A DNA stretch of 29,426 bases, taken from the IMG/VR virus record IMGVR_UViG_3300042346_000540, positions 1-29,426 of that record, one strand, 5' to 3'. The notes beneath the pieces are model-generated. The model was not told the origin of the DNA. It saw only the letters and a list, made by a program, of their open reading frames with translations, and did not search any database. Each line of letters opens with the position of its first letter. The stretch's first letter is position 1. The position numbers and the translations under genes are program-made. This document shows positions 3,804-29,426 of the stretch, piece after piece. This DNA comes from a virus.

Positions 3804-3961
3804 GGCAGCAGCTGGTGAGGCTGGCGAGCACGCTGGTCCTCGAGCACGCGCTGATGCTGCGCGGCGCGCTATACACACTCGGGCACGACGGCTGCGCGTC
3901 TCGCGTGTGGTCGCGCGCGACGGCCGTGGTCGGCTGGCTAGACGAGAGGGCGAAACGATGA
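3800..3961 (+). CDS. Very small protein with GTG start (53 aa)
   Basis: GTG at 3800 overlaps the previous TGA by four bases (GTGA), and its own TGA (3959-3961) overlaps the amidase ATG at 3958. The 53 residues contain amphipathic helices and one Cys. It fills the gap between two coupled genes in frame, which is the best evidence for it. No membrane segment is long enough to call it an antiholin. Function unknown. Confidence 0.45.
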   Translation: MRQQLVRLASTLVLEHALMLRGALYTLGHDGCASRVWSRATAVVGWLDERAKR

Positions 3962-4554
3962 CGACGTTCGATCCGGTCGATGGGCGCACGCTGACGCCGC
4001 GCTGCTGGTGGGAGCCGCCGGGCGAGGGCTGCCGCCGTCGCAAGCGCCCACCGCGCGCGGTGGTCTGGCACTGGACCGCGGGCGAGCGTCCTGCGGAGGC
4101 CGTGTGCACGACGCTGCGCAATCGCAAGCTGTCGGTGCATTACGTGATCGACCCGGATGGCCGCGTCGTCCAGTGCGCGGACCCCGTGTCGACGGTCACG
4201 TACCACGCGGGCCTCGCCAACGAATGGACCATCGGCGTCGAGATCGTTAGCAAGGGCACGCAGCCCGCATCGCCAGCGCGCCCACGCCCGCGTATCGCGT
4301 GTCGCGTGCACGGGAGGCACGTCGCAGGCCTCGATTTCTTGCCGCCGCAGTACGCGTCCATCATCGCGCTCGCGGAGCAGCTCAGCGCCGACTACGGCAT
4401 CCCGCGCGCGTGCGCCGGAACTGAGCCGCAGGTGATGACGCCCGGTGTGCAGAGCACTTTCGCGGGGCACCTCGAGCACGCGCACCTGAGCGCTGGTAAG
4501 GTCGACTCGGGCGGTTTGGTTATGCGCGCATTGCGCGAGCGCTGGAAAATCTGA
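3958..4554 (+). CDS. N-acetylmuramoyl-L-alanine amidase (Amidase_2/PGRP-type endolysin)
   Basis: A 198-residue zinc amidase that would cut the bond between N-acetylmuramic acid and L-alanine in peptidoglycan at the end of infection. The fold motifs are visible in order: VVWHWTAG with the first zinc His (H38), HYVIDPDGRVVQ (about 61-72), YHAG (83), GVEIVS with the catalytic-site Glu region (93-98), and GHLEHAHLSAGKVDSGG (170-186) carrying the second His ligands (H174/H176), Lys181 and the acidic third ligand (D183). It has no signal peptide, so export depends on a holin, in line with the holin-like gene at 2654. The start at 3958 is chosen for the ATGA overlap; an open extension upstream is out of keeping with the family's length. 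Confidence 0.93.
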   Translation: MTTFDPVDGRTLTPRCWWEPPGEGCRRRKRPPRAVVWHWTAGERPAEAVCTTLRNRKLSVHYVIDPDGRVVQCADPVSTVTYHAGLANEWTIGVEIVSKGTQPASPARPRPRIACRVHGRHVAGLDFLPPQYASIIALAEQLSADYGIPRACAGTEPQVMTPGVQSTFAGHLEHAHLSAGKVDSGGLVMRALRERWKI

Positions 4555-5931: not shown

Positions 5932-6762
5932 ATGGCGACGTCACTCGACCGCAGCCTCGTCGGCCTCCTTGGTAGCATCGAGGTCTTCGGCCTCGGGGAC
6001 GCTGCACCCGGAATCACCGGCACGCTGACGACGACGCTCGGCGCGCTCACGTCGAGCGCTGACGGCACCGTCCGCGTCGATGGCGATGCATCGATCACGC
6101 TCGACGCGCTGACGTCGTCGTCGGCCGGTACGGTGCTGGTCGACGGCGACCTGACCGCGACGCTGGGCGCGGCGACCGTCTCGAGCACGGGCACCGTCGC
6201 AACGCCAAGTGCGACGGGCACACTGACCGTCACGCTCGGCACGCTGACCGTCAGCAGCGCCGCTGCCGTGCGCGTCGCTGGCGCGCTGACCGTCACGCTC
6301 GGCGCTGCCACGCTCGCCAGCGCCGCTACAGTCCGCGTGGACGGAGCGGCCACTGCGACGCTCGGGGCCGCGACTGCGAGCGCAGCAGGCGGCGTCCTCG
6401 TGGCGGCAACGGCCGACGTCACGCTTGGCGATCTGACGGTAGCGTCTACGGCACGCGTCGACCCGATCGGCACGCTCGACGTAGTGCTCGGCACGCTCAC
6501 CGCGACGGCGACCGCTCAGCAGACGACGCGCGGCGAGGTCGGCGTCACGCTGGGCGCGCTCGAGCTGCTGGCGTCCAACGTGCCCTTCGTGCCCAGTGCT
6601 GAGCGCACGCGCCGCGTACCGTCGCCGCCGCGCATCATGGACGCCATCATCGAGGTCCGCGCCGACGAGGTGCCCGCGCAGCCTCGCGCAGCAGACGTGC
6701 CGGCACCTACCCGCATCGCCACCACAGCGCGGCCCAGCCGCATCACGACGAGGGCCGCATGA
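5932..6762 (+). CDS. Beta-repeat protein with about nine TLGA-type repeats
   Basis: A 276-residue protein preceded by GGAGG (5921-5925). After 25 non-repeated residues it carries about nine tandem repeats of roughly 21 residues between residues 28 and 222. The core is [TV]-x-TLGA[LA]T-x-S-[SA]-x-x-x-V-x-[VD]-x-G. Each repeat would form two beta strands, so the array should make a beta-solenoid or fibrous stalk. A basic, Pro/Arg-rich tail follows (about 235-276) without repeats. Similar TLGALTLSATGTV-type repeats are seen in phage structural proteins. Such repeats can expand or contract by recombination, although the DNA copies here are already diverged. Confidence 0.7.
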   Translation: MATSLDRSLVGLLGSIEVFGLGDAAPGITGTLTTTLGALTSSADGTVRVDGDASITLDALTSSSAGTVLVDGDLTATLGAATVSSTGTVATPSATGTLTVTLGTLTVSSAAAVRVAGALTVTLGAATLASAATVRVDGAATATLGAATASAAGGVLVAATADVTLGDLTVASTARVDPIGTLDVVLGTLTATATAQQTTRGEVGVTLGALELLASNVPFVPSAERTRRVPSPPRIMDAIIEVRADEVPAQPRAADVPAPTRIATTARPSRITTRAA

Positions 6763-9644: not shown

Positions 9645-9674
9645 CGTCAGAACGGCAGGTCATCGTCGCCGCCG
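9645..9674. repeat. 30-bp direct repeat, copy 2 (functional SSB 3' end)
   Basis: This copy encodes the end of the intact SSB (GGDDDLPF and TGA on the minus strand). It is the partner of 9239-9268, 406 bp away, and the likely source of the duplication. Confidence 0.85.
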
Positions 9675-10051
9675 CTGTCCCAGTTGCTCGCCGCAGGCTT
9701 CCCGCGCCGCTCCACGATGGGGCCGTCGCTGGCCTCGCGCTTGCCGCCGACGAGCGCAATTTCCGTGACCGTGATCTCAGGCGCAGCGCCGCGCGTGCCG
9801 TCGCGCTTCTCAAACTGACGCAAGCTGAAACGGCCCGTGACGCCGACCGGCGTGCCCTTCTTCAAGTAGGGCGCAACGCCCGACTTTTTGCCCCAGATCA
9901 CGAGGTCAAAGTAGACGGGCGGCTCGTCCTTCTTGAAGCCGTTGACGGCAATCGCGACGTTGCACACGCGGTCACCGTTCTTCGTGTCACGCACCTCCGC
10001 GTCACGCGTACACCGGCCGGTCACGGAAATCGTATTCAGGTCGCTGCTCAT
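9647..10051 (-). CDS. ssb: Single-stranded DNA-binding protein
   Basis: A 134-residue SSB. Residues 4-105 form the OB fold: LNTISVTGRCTRDAEVRDT at the start, then VCNVAIAVNG, VYFDLVIWGKKSG with the conserved aromatic/Trp pair, and VGVTGRFSLRQFEKRDG. A short flexible linker leads to the acidic tail DDDLPF, the docking peptide for partner proteins. It would coat single-stranded DNA during phage replication and work with the RecT-like protein encoded just upstream; the two genes overlap as ATGA at 10048-10051. Confidence 0.93.
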   Translation of the reverse strand: MSSDLNTISVTGRCTRDAEVRDTKNGDRVCNVAIAVNGFKKDEPPVYFDLVIWGKKSGVAPYLKKGTPVGVTGRFSLRQFEKRDGTRGAAPEITVTEIALVGGKREASDGPIVERRGKPAASNWDSGGDDDLPF

Positions 10052-10854
10052 GTGCTCTCCTCGCCGCTCTCGCGGTCTGCGTTCATCCGCGCGATGATCG
10101 CGCTCTTGCTCTCGTCGATGCGCGCCTTCGCAGCCTTGCCCGCCGCGCTCACGCGCTCGCGCCCCGCCGCGCTCAGCGACGCCCACGCAGGCGCGACCAG
10201 CTCGGCCCGCAGCTGCGCGAGCTCGACGTCGGTGCTCGCCACGTCGAGCGCCGCGACGATGCGCTCTGCGCCGTCCTCGAGCGTCGGTGTCGCGGGCACG
10301 CCCTCCACGACGGCGACGTGCTCGACGCGCGGCTCCTCGTCGTGCTGCGGCGCGCTCAACTCCTCGCGCGTGTAGACGCTGCCGCTAAACGCGTCGGCGG
10401 CGTAGGCACGCGCACCCGCAGTAATCGCGCGTGCACGCAGCATGGCGCGCGGGTACTTGCGCCACGTCGCGGAGCCCCAGAGGCCCGCACGCTCGGCGTC
10501 GGCGCGCGTAAAGGTGCTCGTGTACGGCGCGCAGTTCGGGCGCGTCAATCGCACGCTGGCGCACTCGTCGGTGTCGCTGAGCCACTCGAGGCCGATGCCG
10601 TGCGCGAGCATCCGGCCCGACACGAAGCTGGCGTCCATTCCGAGCTTGCCGTTGACCAAGTAGAACGACCGCAGCGACGCCATCGGGCCGACGCCCAACT
10701 CGCGGCCTGCGAGGATGACGGCGGCGACCTGCGCGGGAGTGCGGAAATGATCGGGGATGAACCCGCCCTTTGCCGCGGCAAGCGTCTCCGCGAGCCGCAG
10801 CACGTCAGCCAACGACGACACCATATCCAGACCAGCGACCTTGATTTCACTCAT
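10048..10854 (-). CDS. RecT-family single-strand annealing recombinase
   Basis: A 268-residue protein. Residues 30-150 carry the pattern of phage RecT-type proteins: the FRTPAQVAAVILAGRELGVGPMASLRSFYLVNGKLGMDA region, then GSATWRKYPRAMLRARA, which resembles the conserved W-x-x-x-P-x-x-M-x-x-x-R helix of this family. It would anneal complementary single strands for recombination-dependent replication, normally with an exonuclease; none is recognised in this window. The start at 10854 is supported by GGAGGA seven bases upstream and ATGA overlap with the upstream stop; an ATG at 10869 is less likely. The C-terminal third is variable and helical. Confidence 0.85.
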   Translation of the reverse strand: MSEIKVAGLDMVSSLADVLRLAETLAAAKGGFIPDHFRTPAQVAAVILAGRELGVGPMASLRSFYLVNGKLGMDASFVSGRMLAHGIGLEWLSDTDECASVRLTRPNCAPYTSTFTRADAERAGLWGSATWRKYPRAMLRARAITAGARAYAADAFSGSVYTREELSAPQHDEEPRVEHVAVVEGVPATPTLEDGAERIVAALDVASTDVELAQLRAELVAPAWASLSAAGRERVSAAGKAAKARIDESKSAIIARMNADRESGEEST

Positions 10855-11336
10855 GATTGCGTCCTCCATTTCGTATAGGCACGAGCGCTGCTGTCAGCGC
10901 TCAATCGAATGCGCTCTGCCAGTCGCGGCAGGCGCGCCCACCGGTCATCAGCGTCGGCTCCCAGTACCGACTCCGCGACCTGCTGGCTCATCGCGGCGAT
11001 AGCACGACTCACCAGCGACCGCAACTCGTCGCCGCTCATGCTGACGCCGCGGAACTGCGCGCGGATACGCTCGCCCACCTCGAGCATGGCGGCGCTCAGG
11101 TCCGCGTCGTCGCGCGCGGCGATGCCGACCTCCTCGACGTCGAGGGCCGCGGCGCTCGTCGGCCAGACGTGCCGCTCGCTGTCAGCGACCGCGCCGATGA
11201 TCTCGCACGAGTACAGCGACTCGGGCGTCAGCTCGTCCACGAGGTCGCCCTCGTCCAGTTGCAACGCATCCTCGCGCGACGTCGCGAGCACGGGCACGAC
11301 GTACTCCGCGCGCACGCGCACCCAGTACTTCGACAT
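10851..11336 (-). CDS. Unknown protein of the leftward operon (161 aa)
   Basis: The start at 11336 (MSKYWVRVRAEYVVPV) is preceded by GGGAGG and overlaps the upstream stop as TGATG. The N-terminal 90 residues look alpha/beta, beginning with a strand and an acidic segment. The C-terminal part is helical. The N-terminal pattern YWVRVRAEYVVPVLATSREDAL resembles small phage proteins with a repeated beta-alpha unit, but no family is recognised. It directly precedes RecT. Confidence 0.65.
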   Translation of the reverse strand: MSKYWVRVRAEYVVPVLATSREDALQLDEGDLVDELTPESLYSCEIIGAVADSERHVWPTSAAALDVEEVGIAARDDADLSAAMLEVGERIRAQFRGVSMSGDELRSLVSRAIAAMSQQVAESVLGADADDRWARLPRLAERIRLSADSSARAYTKWRTQS

Positions 11337-18782: not shown

Positions 18783-19063
18783 GTGATGATGCTGCACGTA
18801 GGCTCGACCCTGCTGGCTCTGCTCTCGAGCAGGCGTGGCTGGACGTGGTCGAGTGCCACGACGACGAAGTCCACGGCCAGCTCCACGCCGCCATCCAGAC
18901 GACGGCGCTGCTGGTCTTGACGCGCGAGATATCCCTCGGATGCGCGCTGGACGAGCACCTATACGTTGAGGCTGCGTACCGTTGCGGCGTCCACGTCCGC
19001 GAGATTCGCTCGCGGCTGGCTGCTGCGATGATGCGGGCGCGCATCCACGAAAGCCCGCGATGA
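18779..19063 (+). CDS. Small unknown protein heading the zinc-finger operon
   Basis: 94 residues with GGGGAGGA just upstream of the ATG at 18779. It is a helical, acidic N-terminal protein (MSDDAARRLDPAGSALEQAW) with a hydrophobic central helix (about 42-54) and a basic end. It overlaps the first zinc-finger gene as ATGA. No family recognised. Confidence 0.6.
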   Translation: MSDDAARRLDPAGSALEQAWLDVVECHDDEVHGQLHAAIQTTALLVLTREISLGCALDEHLYVEAAYRCGVHVREIRSRLAAAMMRARIHESPR

Positions 19064-19440
19064 CGGCGCATTGCTTCGTTGCTGACGGCTATCGCGAGGA
19101 CGGCGAGCCGCGTCTGCGATGCGCGCGCTGCGGGATGCTAGGCCACTGGGCGGGCGCTCGCGACGCGTGCCCGTATTTGTGCAACGCGCGCTACCGCGTT
19201 CACGCGACGACATCGGCTCCGCAGCCGGTCGTGCAAGGCAACGGCGCGTCGGTGCACTGGGACGGGCCGTACGCAAAGAACCGCTGGTCGACGTGCAAGC
19301 GCTGCGGCAGCAAGTTCCGGCACCCGAAGAGGTTTCGCGTCATGTCGTTCTGCGGCCCCATGTGCGCGCGCGATAATATGCTCGACCGCAATCGCGCCGA
19401 CGCTGCGGCGTATCGTGCGCGGCAGGAGGCGCGGTCGTGA
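19060..19440 (+). CDS. Zinc-finger paralogue 1 of 4
   Basis: 126 residues with two cysteine modules. Module A is CARCGMLGHW followed by a Cys eight residues on. After a variable linker, the motif WDGPY introduces module B, CKRCGSKFRHP then FCGPMC. A basic helical tail ends it. The paired C-x2-C and C-x3-C of module B resemble the treble-clef/HNH-like zinc ribbon found in many phage proteins. The catalytic HNH histidines are not obvious, so nuclease activity is not claimed. The start is set by ATGA overlap. Confidence 0.72.
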   Translation: MTAHCFVADGYREDGEPRLRCARCGMLGHWAGARDACPYLCNARYRVHATTSAPQPVVQGNGASVHWDGPYAKNRWSTCKRCGSKFRHPKRFRVMSFCGPMCARDNMLDRNRADAAAYRARQEARS

Positions 19441-19811
19441 TCGACGACGACGATGACGATGCGCTGCCGGGCTACGTGCTGCCGCACCAGTGGTATCCCG
19501 ATGGCAAGCTGCCTGACGGTGCCGAGCGCGTACGGTGCTCGCGCTGCGCGGTGCTGCGCCACTGGCCCGCGGCTCACGCGACGTGCGTGCGGACGCAGAT
19601 CACGCCCCCCGCGCTGGACGAGACGCAGCCTCTGCACGCGGGCCAGTGGGATGGGCCGTACGCCGCGGAGCAGCCGCGGACGTGTCGCGCCTGTCAGCGG
19701 TCGTTCCGGCGTCCTCGTCGGTGGCCGCGTCTCCAGACGTGCTGCCGCGTGTGCAGCGTCGAGAATCTCCGCGCAGCCAATAGCGCGCAGCAGCGGAGGC
19801 AGCGGTCGTGA
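19437..19811 (+). CDS. Zinc-finger paralogue 2 of 4, GTG start
   Basis: 124 residues from GTG at 19437 (GTGA overlap). An acidic start (six Asp) leads to module A, CSRCAVLRHWP plus a later Cys, then WDGPY and module B, CRACQRSFRRP then CCRVC. It shares the architecture of the gene before and after it at about the same module spacing. The N-terminal acidic tract is unique to this copy. Confidence 0.72.
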   Translation: MIDDDDDDALPGYVLPHQWYPDGKLPDGAERVRCSRCAVLRHWPAAHATCVRTQITPPALDETQPLHAGQWDGPYAAEQPRTCRACQRSFRRPRRWPRLQTCCRVCSVENLRAANSAQQRRQRS

Positions 19812-20206
19812 GCGGGCACGACTGGCACGACGAGGGCCGCAGCGACCTCGGTGAGCCGCGCTCTCGCTGCCGGTATTGCGGCGTCATGGCGCACTGGCCG
19901 CTCGCGGAGGATGCGTGCACGTCGGCGCGACGCGCGGGCATTCAGCGCAGCAGCAAGCGCAAGGCGTACGCGCGCAAGAGGCCGCAGCCGTCGTCGGGCG
20001 TCTGGGCAGGGCCGTATCGCGAGGGCGAGGCGTCGCGCGAGTGTCGGCGCTGCGCGGCGACGTATCGCAGGCCGGTGACGATGACGCGCTGCGAGTTCTG
20101 CGGCCCGTTGTGCGCGTGGGAGGCGGCGCGCACGTCGCAGATGGAACGCTGGGCGAAGCAGCGCGAGAGGCGTACTGCGGCGTCGCGCGAGAGGCGTGCG
20201 CGATGA
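19808..20206 (+). CDS. Zinc-finger paralogue 3 of 4, GTG start
   Basis: 132 residues from GTG at 19808 (GTGA overlap). Module A is CRYCGVMAHWP with a Cys nine residues on; then a basic linker, WAGPYREGE, and module B, CRRCAATYRRP then CEFCGPLC. The tail is very basic (RERRTAASRERRAR), suited to nucleic-acid contact. Confidence 0.72.
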   Translation: MSGHDWHDEGRSDLGEPRSRCRYCGVMAHWPLAEDACTSARRAGIQRSSKRKAYARKRPQPSSGVWAGPYREGEASRECRRCAATYRRPVTMTRCEFCGPLCAWEAARTSQMERWAKQRERRTAASRERRAR

Positions 20207-20754
20207 CGGCGCAGCTGCACGACTGGACGCCGGCAGGACGCGACGCAACGGGCGTCGAGCTCGAGCGCTGCGCGTGCTGCGGCGTCATGCGCCACTGGCC
20301 TGCGAGCGCGGAGGCGTGCGTCGATCACGACCGCATCGCGCGCGAACGGCGCACCGTGGGATTGCGACCGCAGTCGAGGACGGCGCTACCAGCGCGGACG
20401 GCGACGTGCTGGCCGGGGCCGTATCGCGAGGAGCTGCCGCGTCGGTGCGTCGGTTGCGGCACGCAGTTCACGCGGCCGGTCGCGATGCGCCGCTGCGACT
20501 ACTGCGGGCCTGCGTGCGCGTATCGCGCGCGGCGAGCGTCGATCACGGCGTCGCAGCATCGCCAGCGCAAGGGACGCGGGCCAGCGCGGCTCCAGTGCGC
20601 CACGTGTCGGCGGCGATTTACGTACGACGCCAGCGTGCGGCGTCTGCAATACTGCGGCGAGGCGTGCGCGCATCAAGCGCGGCTCAAACAGCAGCGGGAA
20701 TCAGATCGTCGGTGTCGAGCGCCAGCGCGCGCGGAGCAACGCAAATGCAGCTGA
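20203..20754 (+). CDS. Zinc-finger paralogue 4 of 4, with an extra module
   Basis: 183 residues, ATGA overlap at 20203. Module A is CACCGVMRHWP; then WPGPYREELPRRC introduces module B (CVGCGTQFTRP, CDYCGPAC). A third unit resembling module B follows, CATCRRRFTY then YCGEAC, and a basic tail. This copy looks like the family plan plus a duplicated module B, so domain gain accompanies gene duplication. DNA or RNA binding is likely from the basic charge. Confidence 0.72.
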   Translation: MTAQLHDWTPAGRDATGVELERCACCGVMRHWPASAEACVDHDRIARERRTVGLRPQSRTALPARTATCWPGPYREELPRRCVGCGTQFTRPVAMRRCDYCGPACAYRARRASITASQHRQRKGRGPARLQCATCRRRFTYDASVRRLQYCGEACAHQARLKQQRESDRRCRAPARAEQRKCS

Positions 20755-21235: not shown

Positions 21236-22701
21236 AAGCGCCGCGCATCATCCACGCCGATTGCCTCGAGGCGTTACGCGCGATGGACGCGTGCAGCGTG
21301 GACGCGATCGTCACCGACCCTCCTGCGGGAATCGCGTTCATGAACAAAGATTGGGACCGAGACAAGGGCGGTCGCACCGAGTGGGTCGCGTGGATGGCAG
21401 AGATTGCGCGCGAGTGTTTGCGCGTCATCAAGCCGGGAGGTCACGCGCTGGTGTGGGCGTTGCCGCGCACGTCACACTGGACGGGCTGGGCGTGGGAGGA
21501 CGCGGGCTGGCAGCCTCGCGACAAGGTCGTTCATCTGTACGGGTCGGGCTTCCCGAAGAGCCTCGACGTGAGCAAAGCCATCGACAAGGCTGCTGGAGCG
21601 GAGCGCAAAGTAGTCGGGACTCGCACGCTGACGGGCAACGCGGCCCAGACAACGGAAGAAAAGGGCGGAACATACGCCTCCAATACCGACTCGCGAGGAG
21701 TGCCCCCCAAGGAAGTGCCCATCACCGCTCCAGCCACCGAAGCCGCTCGCCAATGGCAAGGCTGGGGCACCGCGCTCAAGCCCGCCGCTGAGGACTGGTG
21801 GCTGATGCGCAAGCCTCTCGACGGCACCATCGCGTCGAACGTGATCAAGCATGGCACGGGCGCGATCAACGTGGATGGGTGCAGAATCGGGACGGATGGT
21901 GAGGATATGGGCAATCCGTCTCGTTTCTTAAAGTCAGACGCAAAACTGCACGAAGGATGGCAACGCCCCCACAAGGCCAACGAAGAGAAGATGAAGGAGC
22001 GTGCCCTCGACCGCTTTGAGAAGACCACATCGCTAGGTCGCTGGCCCGCGAACGTAACGCTTGACGAAGAGGCTGCGGCGATGCTGGATGAGCAGACTGA
22101 CATCGCGAGGCCGAAGACCGGGCGTGTAGGTCAACGCGGCGGCAAAGGCTTCGGAATGTTTGACGACGAAAAGAGCGCTGCAGCTATCGGCACTTGGCCC
22201 GCAGATCCCGGCGGCGGCGCGTCCCGCTTCTTCTATGTCGCGAAGCCCTCGCGCTCCGAGCGCGACGCTGGCTGTGCCGAGCTTGAACCGCAGCAGCGCG
22301 ACGAGGGCCGCGTCGCTGGCGCACCGGGCGGCGATAACCCGCGCAACCGTGGCGCGGCGGCTCGCACGAACAGCCATCCCACGGTGAAGAGCATCGCGCT
22401 GATGCGCTGGCTGGTGCGGCTGATAACGCCGCCCGGTGGCGTCGTGCTCGACCCGTTCTGCGGTAGCGGCACCACGTTGCTCGCGTGCATCGAAGAGGGC
22501 GTGGACGCGATCGGCATCGAGCGCGAGGCTGAGTACGTCGAGATCATCCGGCGACGGGTGGCGCACGCGCTCAAGACGCCAGCGAAGCCCACGAAGCGCA
22601 AGCCGCGCCCCGTTGCGCCGATAGCGCCGCAGCCTGCGCCGGTTGCGCCAACAGTGACTGACATGGCATCAAGACAGCTGGGGCTCTTCGATGGCGTGTA
22701 A
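21232..22701 (+). CDS. DNA methyltransferase (N6-adenine/N4-cytosine, beta-type order)
   Basis: A 489-residue SAM-dependent methyltransferase. Catalytic motif IV is TDPPAG (28-33), early in the protein. SAM-binding motif I is LDPFCGSGTTLLAC (about 406-419), near the C-terminus. This order is that of beta-class enzymes. The usual DPPY/F aromatic is replaced by Ala-Gly; DPPAG versions are known in phage enzymes of this kind, so activity is likely but the target base is unclear. The centre (about 110-370) is a long insertion with Lys/Gly-rich stretches, possibly the target-recognition part. No restriction enzyme is beside it, so it is probably an orphan protecting phage DNA or marking replication state. 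Confidence 0.88.
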   Translation: MKAPRIIHADCLEALRAMDACSVDAIVTDPPAGIAFMNKDWDRDKGGRTEWVAWMAEIARECLRVIKPGGHALVWALPRTSHWTGWAWEDAGWQPRDKVVHLYGSGFPKSLDVSKAIDKAAGAERKVVGTRTLTGNAAQTTEEKGGTYASNTDSRGVPPKEVPITAPATEAARQWQGWGTALKPAAEDWWLMRKPLDGTIASNVIKHGTGAINVDGCRIGTDGEDMGNPSRFLKSDAKLHEGWQRPHKANEEKMKERALDRFEKTTSLGRWPANVTLDEEAAAMLDEQTDIARPKTGRVGQRGGKGFGMFDDEKSAAAIGTWPADPGGGASRFFYVAKPSRSERDAGCAELEPQQRDEGRVAGAPGGDNPRNRGAAARTNSHPTVKSIALMRWLVRLITPPGGVVLDPFCGSGTTLLACIEEGVDAIGIEREAEYVEIIRRRVAHALKTPAKPTKRKPRPVAPIAPQPAPVAPTVTDMASRQLGLFDGV

Positions 22702-23158
22702 TCTCGACGTGTCGTTCACGGTGCCGGGGCCGGTCGTTCCGTGGCAGCGCGCGGCGTCGGTGGGCGCGCGTCGCTTCACGCCCGCAAAGCAGCGCCAGTA
22801 TCAGCAGCTCGTGCGCTATCACGCGCTCGCCGCGCGACCACGCGGGCCGTGGTTGCCGAGCAAGCACGCGCGCTACCGTGTCGACGTCGAGGCGTACCTG
22901 CCTGACGAGCGGCGACGCGATCTCGACAACATCGCGAAGACGGTGCTCGACGCGCTCAACGGCGTGCTCTATCTGGACGATTCGCAGATCACGACGCTGC
23001 TCGTCGCGACGCACGTCGACCGCGAACGTCCCCGCGTGGAGGTGCGCGTCGTGGAACTCGAGCGCGTCATCGTCGCGAAGCCGCAAAGGTCCAGAGCTGC
23101 GCGCGTAACGTCCAGACCTCGCGCGCAAACGTCCAGAGTCGAGGGCGACGCGACATGA
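22691..23158 (+). CDS. rusA: RusA-type Holliday-junction resolvase
   Basis: A 155-residue protein. It has the RusA pattern: VPGPVVPWQRA near the start, a conserved strand (RYRVDVEAYL), then RRRDLDNIAKTVLDALNGVLYLDDSQI with the acidic residues D77, D79, D87 and D96/D97 plus K83, which match RusA catalytic positions. It would cut four-way junctions made by RecT-dependent recombination, resolving concatemers before packaging. It overlaps the methyltransferase by 11 bases. The last 20 residues are basic and come from a 21-bp DNA repeat not typical of the family. Confidence 0.88.
   Translation: MACNLDVSFTVPGPVVPWQRAASVGARRFTPAKQRQYQQLVRYHALAARPRGPWLPSKHARYRVDVEAYLPDERRRDLDNIAKTVLDALNGVLYLDDSQITTLLVATHVDRERPRVEVRVVELERVIVAKPQRSRAARVTSRPRAQTSRVEGDAT
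23089..23137. repeat. Three 21-bp-spaced GTCCAGA repeats
   Basis: GTCCAGA begins at 23089, 23110 and 23131, exactly 21 bp apart, with similar GCGCGC-rich spacers after the first two. A related GTCCGGA lies at 23163. The period equals two DNA turns and seven codons of the RusA tail. Confidence 0.65.
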
Positions 23159-24186: not shown

Positions 24187-24286
24187 TGCGTCAATGCGCG
24201 CCTATCGTTGCCGCGCAATCGGCTTGCGCCGACCCTGTATTGCGTGCGTCCCTTACAATGCGCGGGATTCCTGCGATGGTGATGGC
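24187..24286 (+). promoter_or_regulatory. Early/late boundary, weak -10 only
   Basis: This 100-bp gap separates the regulator from the packaging genes. It holds a TACAAT -10-like box at 24254-24259 with no matching -35 at 16-18 bp, as expected for an activator-dependent late promoter. No hairpin terminator is seen. Confidence 0.3.
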
Positions 24287-24817
24287 ATGAGCAAGCGGCA
24301 GCGGAAGGGCGAGGAGCCTCGGCAGCTGAGCGCGCCGCTCGGCAGGCCGTCGCACATCACGCCAGCGTTCACGCAGCGGGTATGCGCGCGAGTCGAGAAC
24401 GGGCTGCGTCTACCGGCAGCGCTCGAAGCCGAGGGCGTGTCGCCGCGATGCATCGAGAAGTGGCGCTCGCAGGCTGACGCAGGACGCGAGCCATACGCGG
24501 ATTTCTTCGGCGCTGTCGCACGCGCGCGCTCGGCATTCGAGCAGTCCATGCTCGACCAGATACGGCTGCAAGCCAAGCCCACGCAGGCTGGCGAGGAAAG
24601 CGACTGGAAAGCTCGCGCATGGCTGCTTGAGCGCACGATGCCTGAGACGTACGCGCCCTCGCAGCAGCTCGTCATCCGCGCGCAGGAGGCCGCGGCAAAC
24701 GACGTGCTGACGGCTGCTCGCGAGTGCTTGCCGTCTGAGTGGTACGCGGTGCTGCTCGCGCGGCTTGCTGGCGATGACAGGGCCGACGACGACGAGGCCG
24801 CAGACGAGGCGCATTGA
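24287..24817 (+). CDS. Putative terminase small subunit
   Basis: A 176-residue protein directly before the large terminase (TGATG overlap). Residues 30-80 (FTQRVCARVENGLRLPAALE, SPRCIEKWRSQA) form a helix-turn-helix of the type seen in small terminases, which recognise the packaging site. The middle is helical (oligomerisation-like), and the acidic tail could contact the large subunit. The start at 24287 (MSKRQRKGEE) is chosen by its basic N-terminus; in-frame upstream ATGs lack support and a good Shine-Dalgarno is absent. Confidence 0.75.
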   Translation: MSKRQRKGEEPRQLSAPLGRPSHITPAFTQRVCARVENGLRLPAALEAEGVSPRCIEKWRSQADAGREPYADFFGAVARARSAFEQSMLDQIRLQAKPTQAGEESDWKARAWLLERTMPETYAPSQQLVIRAQEAAANDVLTAARECLPSEWYAVLLARLAGDDRADDDEAADEAH

Positions 24818-26304
24818 TGACGGTGCGCGAGCTGATACGCGGTCGGCGGCAGGCGCAGGTGTCGACGCGGCTGCGAGCGGCAGCGGCGCAGGAGCTTGAG
24901 CGACTGCGCGCGGAGAAGTCGCCGTCACGCGAAGACCCGCGGCGCAGGCTGAGCCTCGTGGATTACGTGCACGCGCTGTCTCCGCGATGGGAGCCGCCGC
25001 AGCACCTCGCGCCGGTGGCCGCTCTCTTCGAGCGCGCGATGCGTGGCGAGACGGTGCGTGCGTGCGTGAGCGTCCCGGCGCAGTTCGGCAAGACCACGCT
25101 GATCCAGCATGGAATCGTGCAGATGCTGTCGCGTCATCCGACGTGGCCAGTGGTGTACGCGTCGTATTCGGCCGACTTCGCGCACGACCGCAGCAAAGAG
25201 ATTCGCGACCTCGCACGCGAGGCCGGGCTGTCACTGCGCGACGACACGAGCGCGGCTGGACGCTGGCGTCTGGTCGAGGGTGGTGGTCTGCTCGCGACGG
25301 GCATCGGCGGGCCGCTCACCGGCTATGCCGCGCAGGTCGTCGTGGTCGATGACCCGCACAAAAATCGCGAAGAGGCTGAGTCGCGGCGCGAGCGCGAGAA
25401 GATTTCCGACTGGCTGCGGTCGACGGCGCTCACGCGCATCGCGCCCACGGGCTCGTGCATCGTTGTGCATACACGCTGGCATCCCGACGACCTCATCGGC
25501 AGGCTCGAAGCTGACGGCTGGGAGGTCGTGAATCTCCCGGCGATCACCGCCGAGGACGAGTCGCTGTGGCCGTCGCAGCGCCCGCGTGAGTTCCTGCGCC
25601 AGCGCGAGCGCGAGGTCGGGCCGTACGAGTGGGCAGCGCTTTACATGGGCCAGCCTCGAGCGCGCGGTGGCGCAGTTTTCTCAGCAACGCCGACGACGTA
25701 CTCGACGCCACCGGGCGAGCTCACGCGCGGCATCGGGCTCGACCTCGCATACTCAGCGAAGACGAGCGCGGACTGGTCGGTGGCAGTGGTGATGGGCAAG
25801 GCGGGACAAGGGCAGGACGCGCGGTACTACGTCCTCGACGTGCTGCGCGCGCAGATGCGTGCGAGCGATTTCGCGCAGCAGCTCGCGATGCTTAGGGCAC
25901 GCTGGCCGCACACCGCGTCGCGCATCTACGCAGGCGGCGCTGACCGCGGCGCGCTCGACTTCCTCGCGCTGCCGCCACCTCGAGGAGTCGGGCTGCAAGT
26001 CGAGGTCAAGACGGCCATCGGAGACAAGTACGCGCGCGCCACACCGCTGGCAGCAGCGTGGAACGCGGGCCGCGTGCTCGTGCGCGAGGGCGCTGCGTGG
26101 CTGCCTGACCTCTGCGACGAGGTCGCGCGATTTACGGGGCAGGGCGACGCGCACGACGACCAAGTCGACGCGCTCGCGGCTGCGTTCGACCTGCTCGCGG
26201 AGATGCACGTCGGCAGCGGCGTCGCGAGCACTGGCAGGCGCGTGTCTGCTGACCTGACGACAGACTACGCGCCCCGCGTCGGGCGCAAGAACTACTGGGG
26301 TTAG
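24817..26304 (+). CDS. terL: Terminase large subunit
   Basis: A 495-residue packaging motor and nuclease. The ATPase half has Walker A SVPAQFGKTT (85-94) and Walker B VVVVDDP (174-180). The nuclease half begins with GIGLDLAYS and an Asp pair at TSADWS, and ends with GDAHDDQVDALAAAF, the usual last acidic motif of the RNase H-like nuclease. The start at 24817 is set by the TGATG overlap; TTG at 24814 is possible but unlikely. It pumps DNA into the prohead through the portal encoded 3 bases downstream. Confidence 0.93.
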   Translation: MTVRELIRGRRQAQVSTRLRAAAAQELERLRAEKSPSREDPRRRLSLVDYVHALSPRWEPPQHLAPVAALFERAMRGETVRACVSVPAQFGKTTLIQHGIVQMLSRHPTWPVVYASYSADFAHDRSKEIRDLAREAGLSLRDDTSAAGRWRLVEGGGLLATGIGGPLTGYAAQVVVVDDPHKNREEAESRREREKISDWLRSTALTRIAPTGSCIVVHTRWHPDDLIGRLEADGWEVVNLPAITAEDESLWPSQRPREFLRQREREVGPYEWAALYMGQPRARGGAVFSATPTTYSTPPGELTRGIGLDLAYSAKTSADWSVAVVMGKAGQGQDARYYVLDVLRAQMRASDFAQQLAMLRARWPHTASRIYAGGADRGALDFLALPPPRGVGLQVEVKTAIGDKYARATPLAAAWNAGRVLVREGAAWLPDLCDEVARFTGQGDAHDDQVDALAAAFDLLAEMHVGSGVASTGRRVSADLTTDYAPRVGRKNYWG

Positions 26305-26307
26305 CCG

Positions 26308-27822
26308 ATGACGTCTCGCAAGCCACGCACGCAGAAGACCGCGCCGGTCGCTGCCGCTGCGCCTGAGCCGATGGGGCCGGTCACGCGCATCCCCGAGATG
26401 GGTCGCGTCATCAGGCCGCAGTCGCTGTCGGCCATCAGCGGGCGCGCGCTACAGCCGGTGTCGCCGGGGCGCATCTCGACGGCGCTGCGCGAGCTCGACT
26501 TCGGCAATTACGAGTATTGGGCGGACATGGCGACGCAGATGCGCCGTGACCCCGTCGTGCGTCGCGCGTACTCGACGCGCCGCTCGTCGGTGGCTGGCCG
26601 CGGCTTCGCCGTGCGCATGGCCGACGACGTCGCGCCCGAGATGCGCGGCGCTGCTGAAGAGCTGGTGCAGTTGACCAAGGAATGGCTCGTGTCGCTTGAG
26701 GCGCGCGAGACGTTCCTGATGCGCGTCCTCGACGCCATCGGCATGGGCATCTCGTGTCACGAGCTGGTGTGGTCGCGTCGCGGCGGCGCGTGGATGCCGC
26801 AGCCGGTGCCAGTGCAAACGCGCAACTTGCGGTACGCGCAGGACTGGTCACTCGAGGTCAGGGACTTTGACTACCAGTGGTACAACACGATCAACTATCC
26901 GGCGAAGTTCCTCGTGCACGTGCCGTGGACGGACCCCGGCCGGCCGATGGACCAAGGCGACTTCCTCGCGGCGGTCTTTTACTGGATGTTCAAGCGCAAC
27001 GTCTGGACGTTCTGGTTGGTTGGCGCTGAGCGATTCGGCAATCCACTTGTGCTCGCGCAGATGGCCGCGTCGTCGGATAGCGCGCAGCGGCAGCGCATCC
27101 TCGACGACCTACAGCAGCTCACGGCCGACAGCGTCGGTGTCACGAGCGGCACGTCGGATATCAAGATCATCGACCCTGCAGGCGCAGGCTCGACGGGCGT
27201 CTGGAAAGAGCTTCGTGCGTCGCTGAACGAGGAGCTGTTCCTCGCGCTCGGCGTCAGTCCCGATCTCTATCTCAGCGGCGCAAACGGCTCGCGCTCGAGC
27301 ACGGAGACGCGCGACGGCGTGCGGCTCGAGAACAGCAAGCTCGACTCGACGCTGATGTGGGGCTCAATCACGCGCGACGTGGTCAGGTGGCTCGCGTACT
27401 ACAATCTGCGCCGCGCCGATATCCCGCTGCCGGTCATCGAGACGCTCTTTGACGACAGCCTGCCGATCACGCGCGACGCCATCGACACCGGCAGCGTGCG
27501 CGTCAACGAAATCCGCGCCTCGCTGGGCTTGCCCGCGTGGAGCGTCGAGGACGGCGGCGAGAACATCGCGAAGATTCAGCTACCGCCTGCGCCTCCGGGC
27601 TCTCCGCTGCCCTTTGAGGCCGCGCCGCCAGTCGAGACGGGCTCGCCATCGATCGAGGCCGTGACGCCCGCTGAAACGCTCGGAGGTGCGTCCGCGGAGC
27701 GCCCTTTCTCGACGTCGCCGGGCTCGGCGCATGGGATGCCAGCGCTGTCGATGACGTCGGCGACTTCGCGGACGTCCTCGCTCTCAGCGACCCCGCGGAC
27801 AAGGCGCGCGTACAGGCAGTAA
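26308..27822 (+). CDS. Portal protein, DUF935 (Mu gp29-like)
   Basis: A 504-residue protein as read in frame 0. It shows the DUF935 pattern: NYEYWADMATQMRRDPVVRR, SVAGRGFAV, ISCHELVW, KFLVHVP, FKRNVWTFWLVGAERFGNPL and LGVSPDLYLS. The portal is the dodecameric ring at the capsid vertex. From about residue 467 on, the frame turns to Ser/Thr/Arg-rich low-quality sequence, while the -1 frame is clearly coding. The last 37 residues may thus be the minor frame-0 ending of a frameshift pair (see 27702-27729). Confidence 0.9.
   Translation: MTSRKPRTQKTAPVAAAAPEPMGPVTRIPEMGRVIRPQSLSAISGRALQPVSPGRISTALRELDFGNYEYWADMATQMRRDPVVRRAYSTRRSSVAGRGFAVRMADDVAPEMRGAAEELVQLTKEWLVSLEARETFLMRVLDAIGMGISCHELVWSRRGGAWMPQPVPVQTRNLRYAQDWSLEVRDFDYQWYNTINYPAKFLVHVPWTDPGRPMDQGDFLAAVFYWMFKRNVWTFWLVGAERFGNPLVLAQMAASSDSAQRQRILDDLQQLTADSVGVTSGTSDIKIIDPAGAGSTGVWKELRASLNEELFLALGVSPDLYLSGANGSRSSTETRDGVRLENSKLDSTLMWGSITRDVVRWLAYYNLRRADIPLPVIETLFDDSLPITRDAIDTGSVRVNEIRASLGLPAWSVEDGGENIAKIQLPPAPPGSPLPFEAAPPVETGSPSIEAVTPAETLGGASAERPFSTSPGSAHGMPALSMTSATSRTSSLSATPRTRRAYRQ
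27702..27729 (+). promoter_or_regulatory. Candidate -1 ribosomal frameshift signal
   Basis: C CCT TTC (27702-27708) is an X XXY YYZ heptamer in the portal's frame. A GGAGG lies at 27682-27686 (15 bases upstream), and a hairpin with arms CGCCG (27716-27720) and CGGCG (27725-27729) starts after a 7-nt spacer. These are the parts of a bacterial frameshift cassette. Confidence 0.65.
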
Positions 27823-28694
27823 TCGGGCGACCGTACGTCGTCGCCGCGGAGACTACGCTTGAGGGCGTCGTCGCGTTCACGCCGGTACGCGAGGCCATCG
27901 CCGTCGCGTCGGCCGGTGGCGCGAGCGCTATCGAAGAGGCCGTCGCCGCGTTCAAGGGCACGCCGGAACTTGAGCGGCTGATTTACGAAGCGTCGGTGAA
28001 ATCCGACCTCGCAGGCCAGATGTTCGTGCGCCTCGTGGAGCTCGACCCGCAGGGCGCGCAACGGCAGCTCGCGGTCGACTTGCGGCCCGCGTTCTTGAAG
28101 ATGCCATTTTCGGAAGCGGTGGCCTTCTGGCGCGAGCGCGGCGGTGACCCCGACATCCTCGAGTTTGTGCTGCGCGCGTATCGCCGTCGCGCTGCGCTGG
28201 CCACCGACGAGCAGCTCGACGTCATCTCGCGACGCGCCGTCGAGGAGCTACAGCGCACGCTCGAAGAAGGCAACACGCTGCGCGACTTCCGACGCGCGAT
28301 GGAAGACCAGACCATCACGCTCGGCATCGCGCCGCAGGACGCCAGCTACCTCGAGAACGTCTACAGGACCAACGTCGCCACGGCCTACGGCGCGGGACGC
28401 TGGACGCAAATGAATGACCCCGACGTCCTCGAGGCTCGCCCGTATAGGCAGTGGCTCACGGCGCAGGACAATCGCGTGCGCGCTGAGCACGCGCCGATGA
28501 ATCGCAAGGTTTGGCGCGCTGATGATTCGTCGTTCGCGAACATCTCGCCGCCTGCCGGATTCCAGTGTCGCTGCGTCATCACGACGCTGTCGGAAGAAGA
28601 ACTCCGCGACGAGGGCTTGCAGGTCATCACCAGCATCCCATCGGGATTCATGCTGACGCCCGGCTTCGGCGCATCGTCTTTTGTGAGGTCATAA
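27708..28694 (+). CDS. Head morphogenesis protein, Mu F/SPP1 gp7-like, made as a portal fusion
   Basis: Read in the -1 frame from the slippery site, this adds 328 residues to the portal's 467, giving a fusion of about 795. The frame has no ATG, GTG or TTG between its opening at 27675 and a GTG at 27996 that lacks a Shine-Dalgarno, yet reads well as protein throughout. The Mu F domain is in the second half: YRTNVATAYGAGRW, then RAEHAPMNRKVW and PPAGFQCRCVITTL, the family's His and Cys-x-Cys motifs. It is a minor head protein needed for capsid assembly, sometimes injected. If not a fusion, a 232-residue protein from 27996 would be made. Confidence 0.82.
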   Translation, partial: LDVAGLGAWDASAVDDVGDFADVLALSDPADKARVQAVIGRPYVVAAETTLEGVVAFTPVREAIAVASAGGASAIEEAVAAFKGTPELERLIYEASVKSDLAGQMFVRLVELDPQGAQRQLAVDLRPAFLKMPFSEAVAFWRERGGDPDILEFVLRAYRRRAALATDEQLDVISRRAVEELQRTLEEGNTLRDFRRAMEDQTITLGIAPQDASYLENVYRTNVATAYGAGRWTQMNDPDVLEARPYRQWLTAQDNRVRAEHAPMNRKVWRADDSSFANISPPAGFQCRCVITTLSEEELRDEGLQVITSIPSGFMLTPGFGASSFVRS

Positions 28695-29426
28695 TGGCAT
28701 CTACCGCAACAGCCTTCGACGGCTCACGCAAGCTCGCGCTGCGCGCCACGCTCGGCGCGTTCGCTGACGTCGCCGCGCAGCCCACCATGAAGGCACCGCT
28801 GCTCGCCAACGCTCAGTGCTCGTGGGTTGAGATGGCCTACGAGAGCGAGTGGAACGGCCACCCAGCTGGGCCGTTTGCATTCACGCGCGAAGTCTTCGGC
28901 GACATCAAACGCCTCTACGACGCAGGCGAGCAGCCGGTGCCCGTGCTCTGGGGCCACCCGCGCCACGACATGGGCGTGCCCATCGACGCGGCTGGCTGGA
29001 TTCAGGCGCTCGAGGTGCGCGACGGCGCGACGGGCTGCGAGCTGTGGGGCTACGTCGAGTGGACTGACGACGCCGCCAAGCGCATCGCGTCGGGCGCGCA
29101 GCGCTTCTGCTCAGTCGTTGTTGACTTCGCGCCGATTGACCGCGCGACTGGCGAGGTCGCTGGCCTCGCTGAGCTGTACGAGCTCGGCCTCACGCCGTCA
29201 CCGTTTCTACCGGGCATGACGCCCATCACTCTCTCCCGCGTCGGGACTCCGTCGCGGAGGTCAACAAGGAGTCTCGCAATGGATCCCACGAAGGTTTTGA
29301 TGGCAATCGCGACGGCGCTCGGTCTCAAGAAAGACGCGACGCCGGAGAAAATGAAGAAGGCGTTTGACGCGCTTGTGGCGCTTGCGGGCGCGATGGCCGA
29401 GGAGGCCATGCCCGCTGCGACGATCA
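28694..29426 (+). CDS. Mu I-like protease/scaffold protein (partial at window end)
   Basis: ATG at 28694 overlaps the upstream TAA (TAATG); the frame is open to the window end (244 residues so far). WGHPRHDMGVPIDAAGWI, RFCSVVVDFAPID and GEVAGLAELYELGLTPSPFLPGM match the phage Mu I protease family, which cleaves the scaffold and itself during head maturation. From residue 196 the character changes to a Lys/Ala-rich helical segment, the start of the scaffold part. The C-terminus lies beyond the window. Confidence 0.85.
   Translation, partial: MASTATAFDGSRKLALRATLGAFADVAAQPTMKAPLLANAQCSWVEMAYESEWNGHPAGPFAFTREVFGDIKRLYDAGEQPVPVLWGHPRHDMGVPIDAAGWIQALEVRDGATGCELWGYVEWTDDAAKRIASGAQRFCSVVVDFAPIDRATGEVAGLAELYELGLTPSPFLPGMTPITLSRVGTPSRRSTRSLAMDPTKVLMAIATALGLKKDATPEKMKKAFDALVALAGAMAEEAMPAATI
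29279..29426 (+). CDS. Nested in-frame scaffold start (Mu Z-like), partial
   Basis: ATG at 29279 is in frame with the protease gene (residue 196) and has AAGGAG at 29266-29271, seven bases upstream, a better ribosome site than that of the protease itself. In Mu, gene Z (scaffold) is the in-frame 3' part of gene I. The same plan is likely here: MDPTKVLMAIATALGLKKDA then a helical segment, made in excess as free scaffold. Confidence 0.65.
   Translation, partial: MDPTKVLMAIATALGLKKDATPEKMKKAFDALVALAGAMAEEAMPAATI

Follow-up and report, generated by a model that had tools for sequence, protein, structure and literature searches.

The Mu-type head module and its overlapping frames

The stretch of DNA analyzed here, which we call the window, comprises 29,426 bases of an IMG/VR virus record, and its right end carries a Mu-type head module with terminase, Portal_Mu portal, Mu_F, and Mu I-like protease genes, all on the plus strand. 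The terminase large subunit (24814 to 26304; Pfam Terminase_6C, E=1.8e-11; PHROG 38, E=1.2e-83) is located directly 5' of the portal frame, defined here as frame 0 (26308 to 27822), which encodes a Mu-type portal (DUF935/Portal_Mu) of 504 amino acids when unshifted. This ORF matches Pfam PF06074 with E=8.5e-48 and 163.8 bits, above the gathering score of 23.9, as well as the PHROG 113 portal family, and its identity also fits the neighbouring genes, since terminase and MuF flank the Portal_Mu gene. Among solved structures, the portal family profile matches the portal chains 8rka (E=1.9e-17), which we take to be the portal of phage JBD30, and 9khx.

The Mu F-like minor head protein is encoded in the -1 frame (27675 to 28694) and was assigned through PF04233 (E=3.9e-17, 63.4 bits, above the gathering score of 29.6) and the PHROG 220 minor head protein family (E=4.2e-36), with the MuF domain at residues 190-302 of this ORF. 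A search of solved structures with MuF returned no significant match, and the AlphaFold model of the -1 product is of low confidence (mean pLDDT 49). On the 3' side of MuF, the Mu I-like head maturation protease (28694 to 29426, where it exits the window; PF10123, E=1.1e-21; PHROG 328) has a start that overlaps the MuF stop in the sequence TAATG.

Elsewhere in the window, the stretches 9647-10869 (minus strand), 22691-23158, 3958-4554, and 24284-24817 carry SSB, RecT-like, RusA, N-acetylmuramoyl-L-alanine amidase, and a weak small-terminase match, the last being of the Sf6 type and just below the cut-off. Four adjacent small Cys-rich ORFs at 18982-20754 have a CxxC / RxF-P / FCGPxC pattern in common and resemble paralogous zinc-ribbon proteins; when compared with Pfam, they matched no family over its cut-off. 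At 5932-6762, adjoining putative tail-end genes, a protein of 276 amino acids is built of degenerate repeats of about 63 nt (21 codons) with a T-L-G motif.

The portal and Mu_F frames share 145 nt. Following the TGA at 27672-27674, the -1 frame is open up to its stop at 28692-28694; the third-position G+C signal of the portal frame holds to approximately 27,560, and past the slip site it is the -1 frame that has the signal. Within the overlap, in the phase of frame 0, lies the slippery heptamer C_CCT_TTC (27702 to 27708, plus strand), at which the P-site codon would move from CCT to CCC and the A-site codon from TTC to TTT. A sequence-only reading of this DNA had proposed that portal and MuF are joined here by a -1 programmed frameshift; the portal frame, the -1 frame, the heptamer and its phase, a GGAGG, and a hairpin were rechecked and all lie where it had placed them. 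The two product sizes that it predicted are also reproduced by our calculation, with 504 residues for the portal and 467 + 328 = 795 for the frameshift product, portal residues 1-467 being common to both. The predicted trans-frame peptide of the fusion is ...ERPFLDVAGLGAWDAS..., and ...ERPFLDVAGL... would span the junction. The unshifted portal would instead end in a Ser/Thr/Arg-rich tail of 37 codons plus the stop (27709 to 27822, plus strand).

Conservation of the switch site and the missing MuF start

In one sequence alone, the heptamer is weak evidence, and it is its conservation that raises it above chance. By chance, the window should contain CCCTTTC about once, and in-phase X_XXY_YYZ heptamers occur at 3 of the 2757 codon sites of six genes, which gives about 0.05 expected per 48-codon overlap. 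We queried IMG/VR with the portal and with MuF, obtaining about 50 contigs each; all members of the clade are metagenomic contigs and none is cultured. In all clade loci that could be read across the junction, with identities from 100% to 39% for the portal and down to 56% for MuF, CCCTTTC is kept at the switch with its codon phase unchanged. A scan for the heptamer and its context, with the exact pattern CCCTTTC-N14-CTCGGCGNNTGGGATGC, found 51 contigs from 42 metagenomes, counts that do not represent independent events because the sequences are related. Profile searches of IMG/VR for distant members gave essentially the same set plus two loci (L115 and L140) at 22-29% identity, and MuF and portal queries found no relatives among the cellular genomes of GTDB.

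The frame of Mu_F relative to the portal is -1 in all clade loci, and none of them encodes a single-frame portal-MuF fusion. Since stops close the -1 frame upstream and frame 0 downstream, the shift would be confined to a short stretch: the -1 frame stop is located 30 nt 5' of the heptamer in most loci, and frame 0 ends, counted from the heptamer, at +118 in most relatives and at +46 in L077. In the window, CCCTTTC is the sole in-phase X_XXY_YYZ heptamer of this stretch. The portals of some relatives (L066, L058, and L077) have an extra C-terminal module of about 100 amino acids (LNGAQV...GFVPA) directly before the linker. The heptamer stays at the junction in these relatives, pointing to an exchange of modules at the portal-MuF boundary in which the heptamer was retained.

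Frameshifts in single contigs are often artefacts, and the arrangement could in principle stem from an assembly or sequencing indel, or else from a decayed gene. The comparison refutes this explanation: all relatives, taken from dozens of independent assemblies of separate metagenomes, show an identical arrangement, which excludes a sequencing indel, and both frames are under purifying selection. We regard it as having practically no chance of being correct. Across relatives, MuF read in the -1 frame has a pN/pS of 0.30, and in the stretch past the slip site the ratio is 1.12 in frame 0 and 0.65 in the -1 frame.

A second feature of the locus, already claimed from the sequence alone, is that MuF lacks a usable start early in its frame. 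The first ATG, GTG, or TTG of the -1 frame is the GTG at 27996, and most records likewise have none of these codons near the switch in the Mu_F frame. Between the upstream stop of the -1 frame and the heptamer, most clade loci have no ATG, GTG, TTG, CTG, ATT, ATC, or ATA, and the few that have a start-like codon there have it at inconsistent places. The alignment of homologues, which had been proposed as a check, thus agrees with the earlier claims of a conserved heptamer and of an early start that is missing in most records, and the -1 frameshift gains support from this comparison.

MuF could nonetheless be initiated separately in the -1 frame, either from the GTG at 27996 or from some non-standard codon close to the GGAGG, with the heptamer being incidental. 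Two facts speak for this alternative: a Shine-Dalgarno-like GGRGGTG is conserved within the overlap, and MuF has a start of its own in outgroup phages. Against it stands the scarcity of start-like codons upstream of the heptamer, together with the variable position of the first downstream GTG or ATG, which in other relatives is found at +63, +165, +168, +183, +228, or +318. The GTG at 27996 is an unlikely independent start: its position is not kept in relatives, and initiation there would remove about 98 conserved residues. Separate initiation would also leave the frozen heptamer unexplained, and we consider it very improbable.

A separate ATG-started MuF gene is found in eight outgroup loci (Mu, Mushu, YPCBV-1, Mx4, MMP7, PeaS-P1, L079, and L115), and CCCTTTC is absent near the junction in Mu, Mushu, YPCBV-1, Mx4, MMP7, PeaS-P1, and L079. 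Because the outgroups keep a separate start, we infer that the change went from start codon to frameshift and that the frameshift replaced the usual MuF start in this lineage.

Nucleotide constraint around the proposed slip site

The first codons of MuF after the switch vary less than their protein sequence would require. In -1 codons 1-14, pS is 0.16, compared with 0.43 overall. Among 35 sequences, all six degenerate codons of this stretch that are invariant in amino acid are also invariant in nucleotide, compared with 10/126 elsewhere in MuF (Fisher P=1.2e-6, relatedness being common to both groups), and the frozen codons include the rare GAT, used for 18% of Asp. This freezing of nucleotides around the slip site indicates that something besides the protein acts here on the RNA.

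Upstream of the heptamer, the sequence-only reading had noticed a Shine-Dalgarno-like GGAGG, which indeed occupies 27682-27686 and lies 15 nt upstream of the heptamer; the comparison of relatives defines the element better as GGRGGTG, ending 13 nt upstream. It reads GGAGGTG in this record (27682 to 27688, plus strand) and GGRGGTG in nearly all relatives, with both GG dinucleotides in 32/32 sequences, A or G between them, and T in 30/32. We take this element to be complementary to the 3' end of the 16S rRNA. Its glycines require GGA or GGG plus GGT, which are less used in the portal (4%, 10%, and 10%, respectively, with GGC at 76%), and GGRGGTGCGNCCNCGG upstream of the heptamer is nearly fixed despite this preference for GGC. 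Stimulatory Shine-Dalgarno elements were sought in E. coli 6-17 nt upstream of the motif (PMC4066793), a range that includes the 13-nt distance of GGRGGTG. On these grounds, GGRGGTG is a probable 5' stimulator of frameshifting.

The 3' flank (27709 to 27740, plus strand) is also conserved at the nucleotide level, with CTCGGCGNNTGGGATGCC (27723-27740) nearly frozen, and it is possibly a 3' stimulator. A G/C hairpin of 5 bp had been described here, and in this record CGCCG and CGGCG can indeed pair (27716-27720/27725-27729) after a spacer of 7 nt; most relatives have other bases in place of its 5' arm, and as a conserved stimulator the hairpin does not hold across the clade. Two further hairpins, GGC/GCC at +25/+39 and CGGA/UCCG upstream, failed in the same manner. 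No common 3' hairpin or pseudoknot was found by RNAalifold or by folding against synonymous recodings (z about -0.6). Nucleotide conservation at 27723-27740 and 27678-27697 exceeds the needs of a slip site and a Shine-Dalgarno-like element, and no common RNA fold accounts for it.

Slippage of the RNA polymerase, rather than of the ribosome, would yield an identical fused product. Transcriptional slippage normally needs long homopolymers, and the runs in CCCTTTC are only three bases long. The conserved X_XXY_YYZ codon phase and the Shine-Dalgarno-like element favour the ribosome, leaving the polymerase as a very improbable agent of the change of frame.

A proposed portal-MuF fusion and the portal ring

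The frameshift is strongly supported by these comparisons of sequences. We propose that a -1 programmed ribosomal frameshift takes place on the portal mRNA: most ribosomes would stay in frame 0 and produce the portal of 504 amino acids, while a fraction would slip back one base at C_CCU_UUC, probably aided by pairing of GGRGGUG with the 16S rRNA and possibly also by the conserved 3' element. The slipped ribosomes would continue in the -1 frame to produce a portal-MuF fusion of 795 amino acids; with no conserved start in the -1 frame, this fusion would be the only ready way to obtain the MuF domain. Rings assembled largely from the short portal, with fusion subunits in a few positions, would then bring a low number of MuF copies to the portal, and the minority fusion would set the number of MuF domains per ring. 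The frameshift explanation is very probably correct. C_CC.U_UU.C is reported among the high-level -1 frameshift motifs in E. coli (PMC4066793), with efficiencies that may not carry over to the host of this phage.

The main rival concerns the fate of the fusion product. The frameshift may be real and serve only to supply a little MuF; the fusion would then be cleaved, the Mu I-like protease being one candidate enzyme, so that no mixed ring would persist in virions. The protease gene lies directly 3' of MuF, and portal and MuF meet in a linker rich in Pro, Ala, Ser, and Thr whose length varies, both of which would suit cleavage; in-frame portal-MuF fusions in some Microbacterium phages show that the joined form can exist (PMC7302621). 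We judge cleavage unlikely, at a level that still deserves attention. Regarding the mixed rings themselves, we lean towards an arrangement in which the count of MuF domains covalently attached to each ring would be fixed by ribosomal frameshifting as opposed to binding affinity, so that translation would break the 12-fold symmetry at the DNA entry vertex.

A few MuF domains per ring would agree with existing knowledge of related portals and of MuF proteins. The JBD30 portal is a dodecamer (PMC11445458), and in SPP1 the MuF protein gp7 binds the portal gp6 and enters the procapsid in few copies (PMC6316719). SPP1 targets a separate protein that is bound non-covalently, whereas a fusion made at the frequency of frameshifting would do so covalently. 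Modules of the Mu/D3112/JBD30 type, with a DUF935 portal followed by a MuF gene, have the same protein families in the same order, terminase-portal-MuF-Mu I protease, but MuF has its own start in those examined, and this start often overlaps the portal stop. The in-frame fusions of Microbacterium phages (subclusters EA3/EA5/EA8 and cluster EB; PMC7302621) join portal and MuF in one polypeptide in the same order as the predicted frameshift product; there, every portal subunit bears MuF because both are encoded in one frame, whereas here only the shifted fraction would.

Frameshifting itself is well described for capsid, tail, and tail-chaperone genes (PMC5009743; PMC6316719), and the capsid genes with a -1 frameshift include those of Lactobacillus phage A2, T3/T7 (10A/10B), and Listeria A118/A500 (PMC5009743). 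Like the portal case proposed here, these yield a minority C-terminal extension of a structural gene and two forms per particle; they extend a major capsid or tail protein, several with an Ig-like domain, whereas the portal would be extended by a MuF head protein that is separately encoded in relatives. The lambda G/GT tail assembly chaperones (Xu et al. 2004, cited in PMC7911831) also have a heptamer-type -1 frameshift that is conserved across relatives and sets the product ratio. They differ in the genes and the step involved, tail chaperones as opposed to head and portal; the G/GT pair lies between the major tail and tape measure genes, whereas the present pair lies between terminase and protease. 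In the open-licence papers searched, we found no description of a portal and MuF made by frameshifting; the mechanism is known, and its location is new.

There is as yet no good account of how a 12-fold portal comes to bear just one or a few copies of an ejection or MuF protein. If our explanation is true, it would provide one for a single lineage: the ratio would be written in the slip site, where silent mutations could alter it and the effect could be read out. The portal would also be added to the phage structural proteins that are diversified by frameshifting. Automated gene calling can be expected to miss the beginning of such MuF genes and to choose an internal GTG instead, and therefore more cases may hide in existing annotations.
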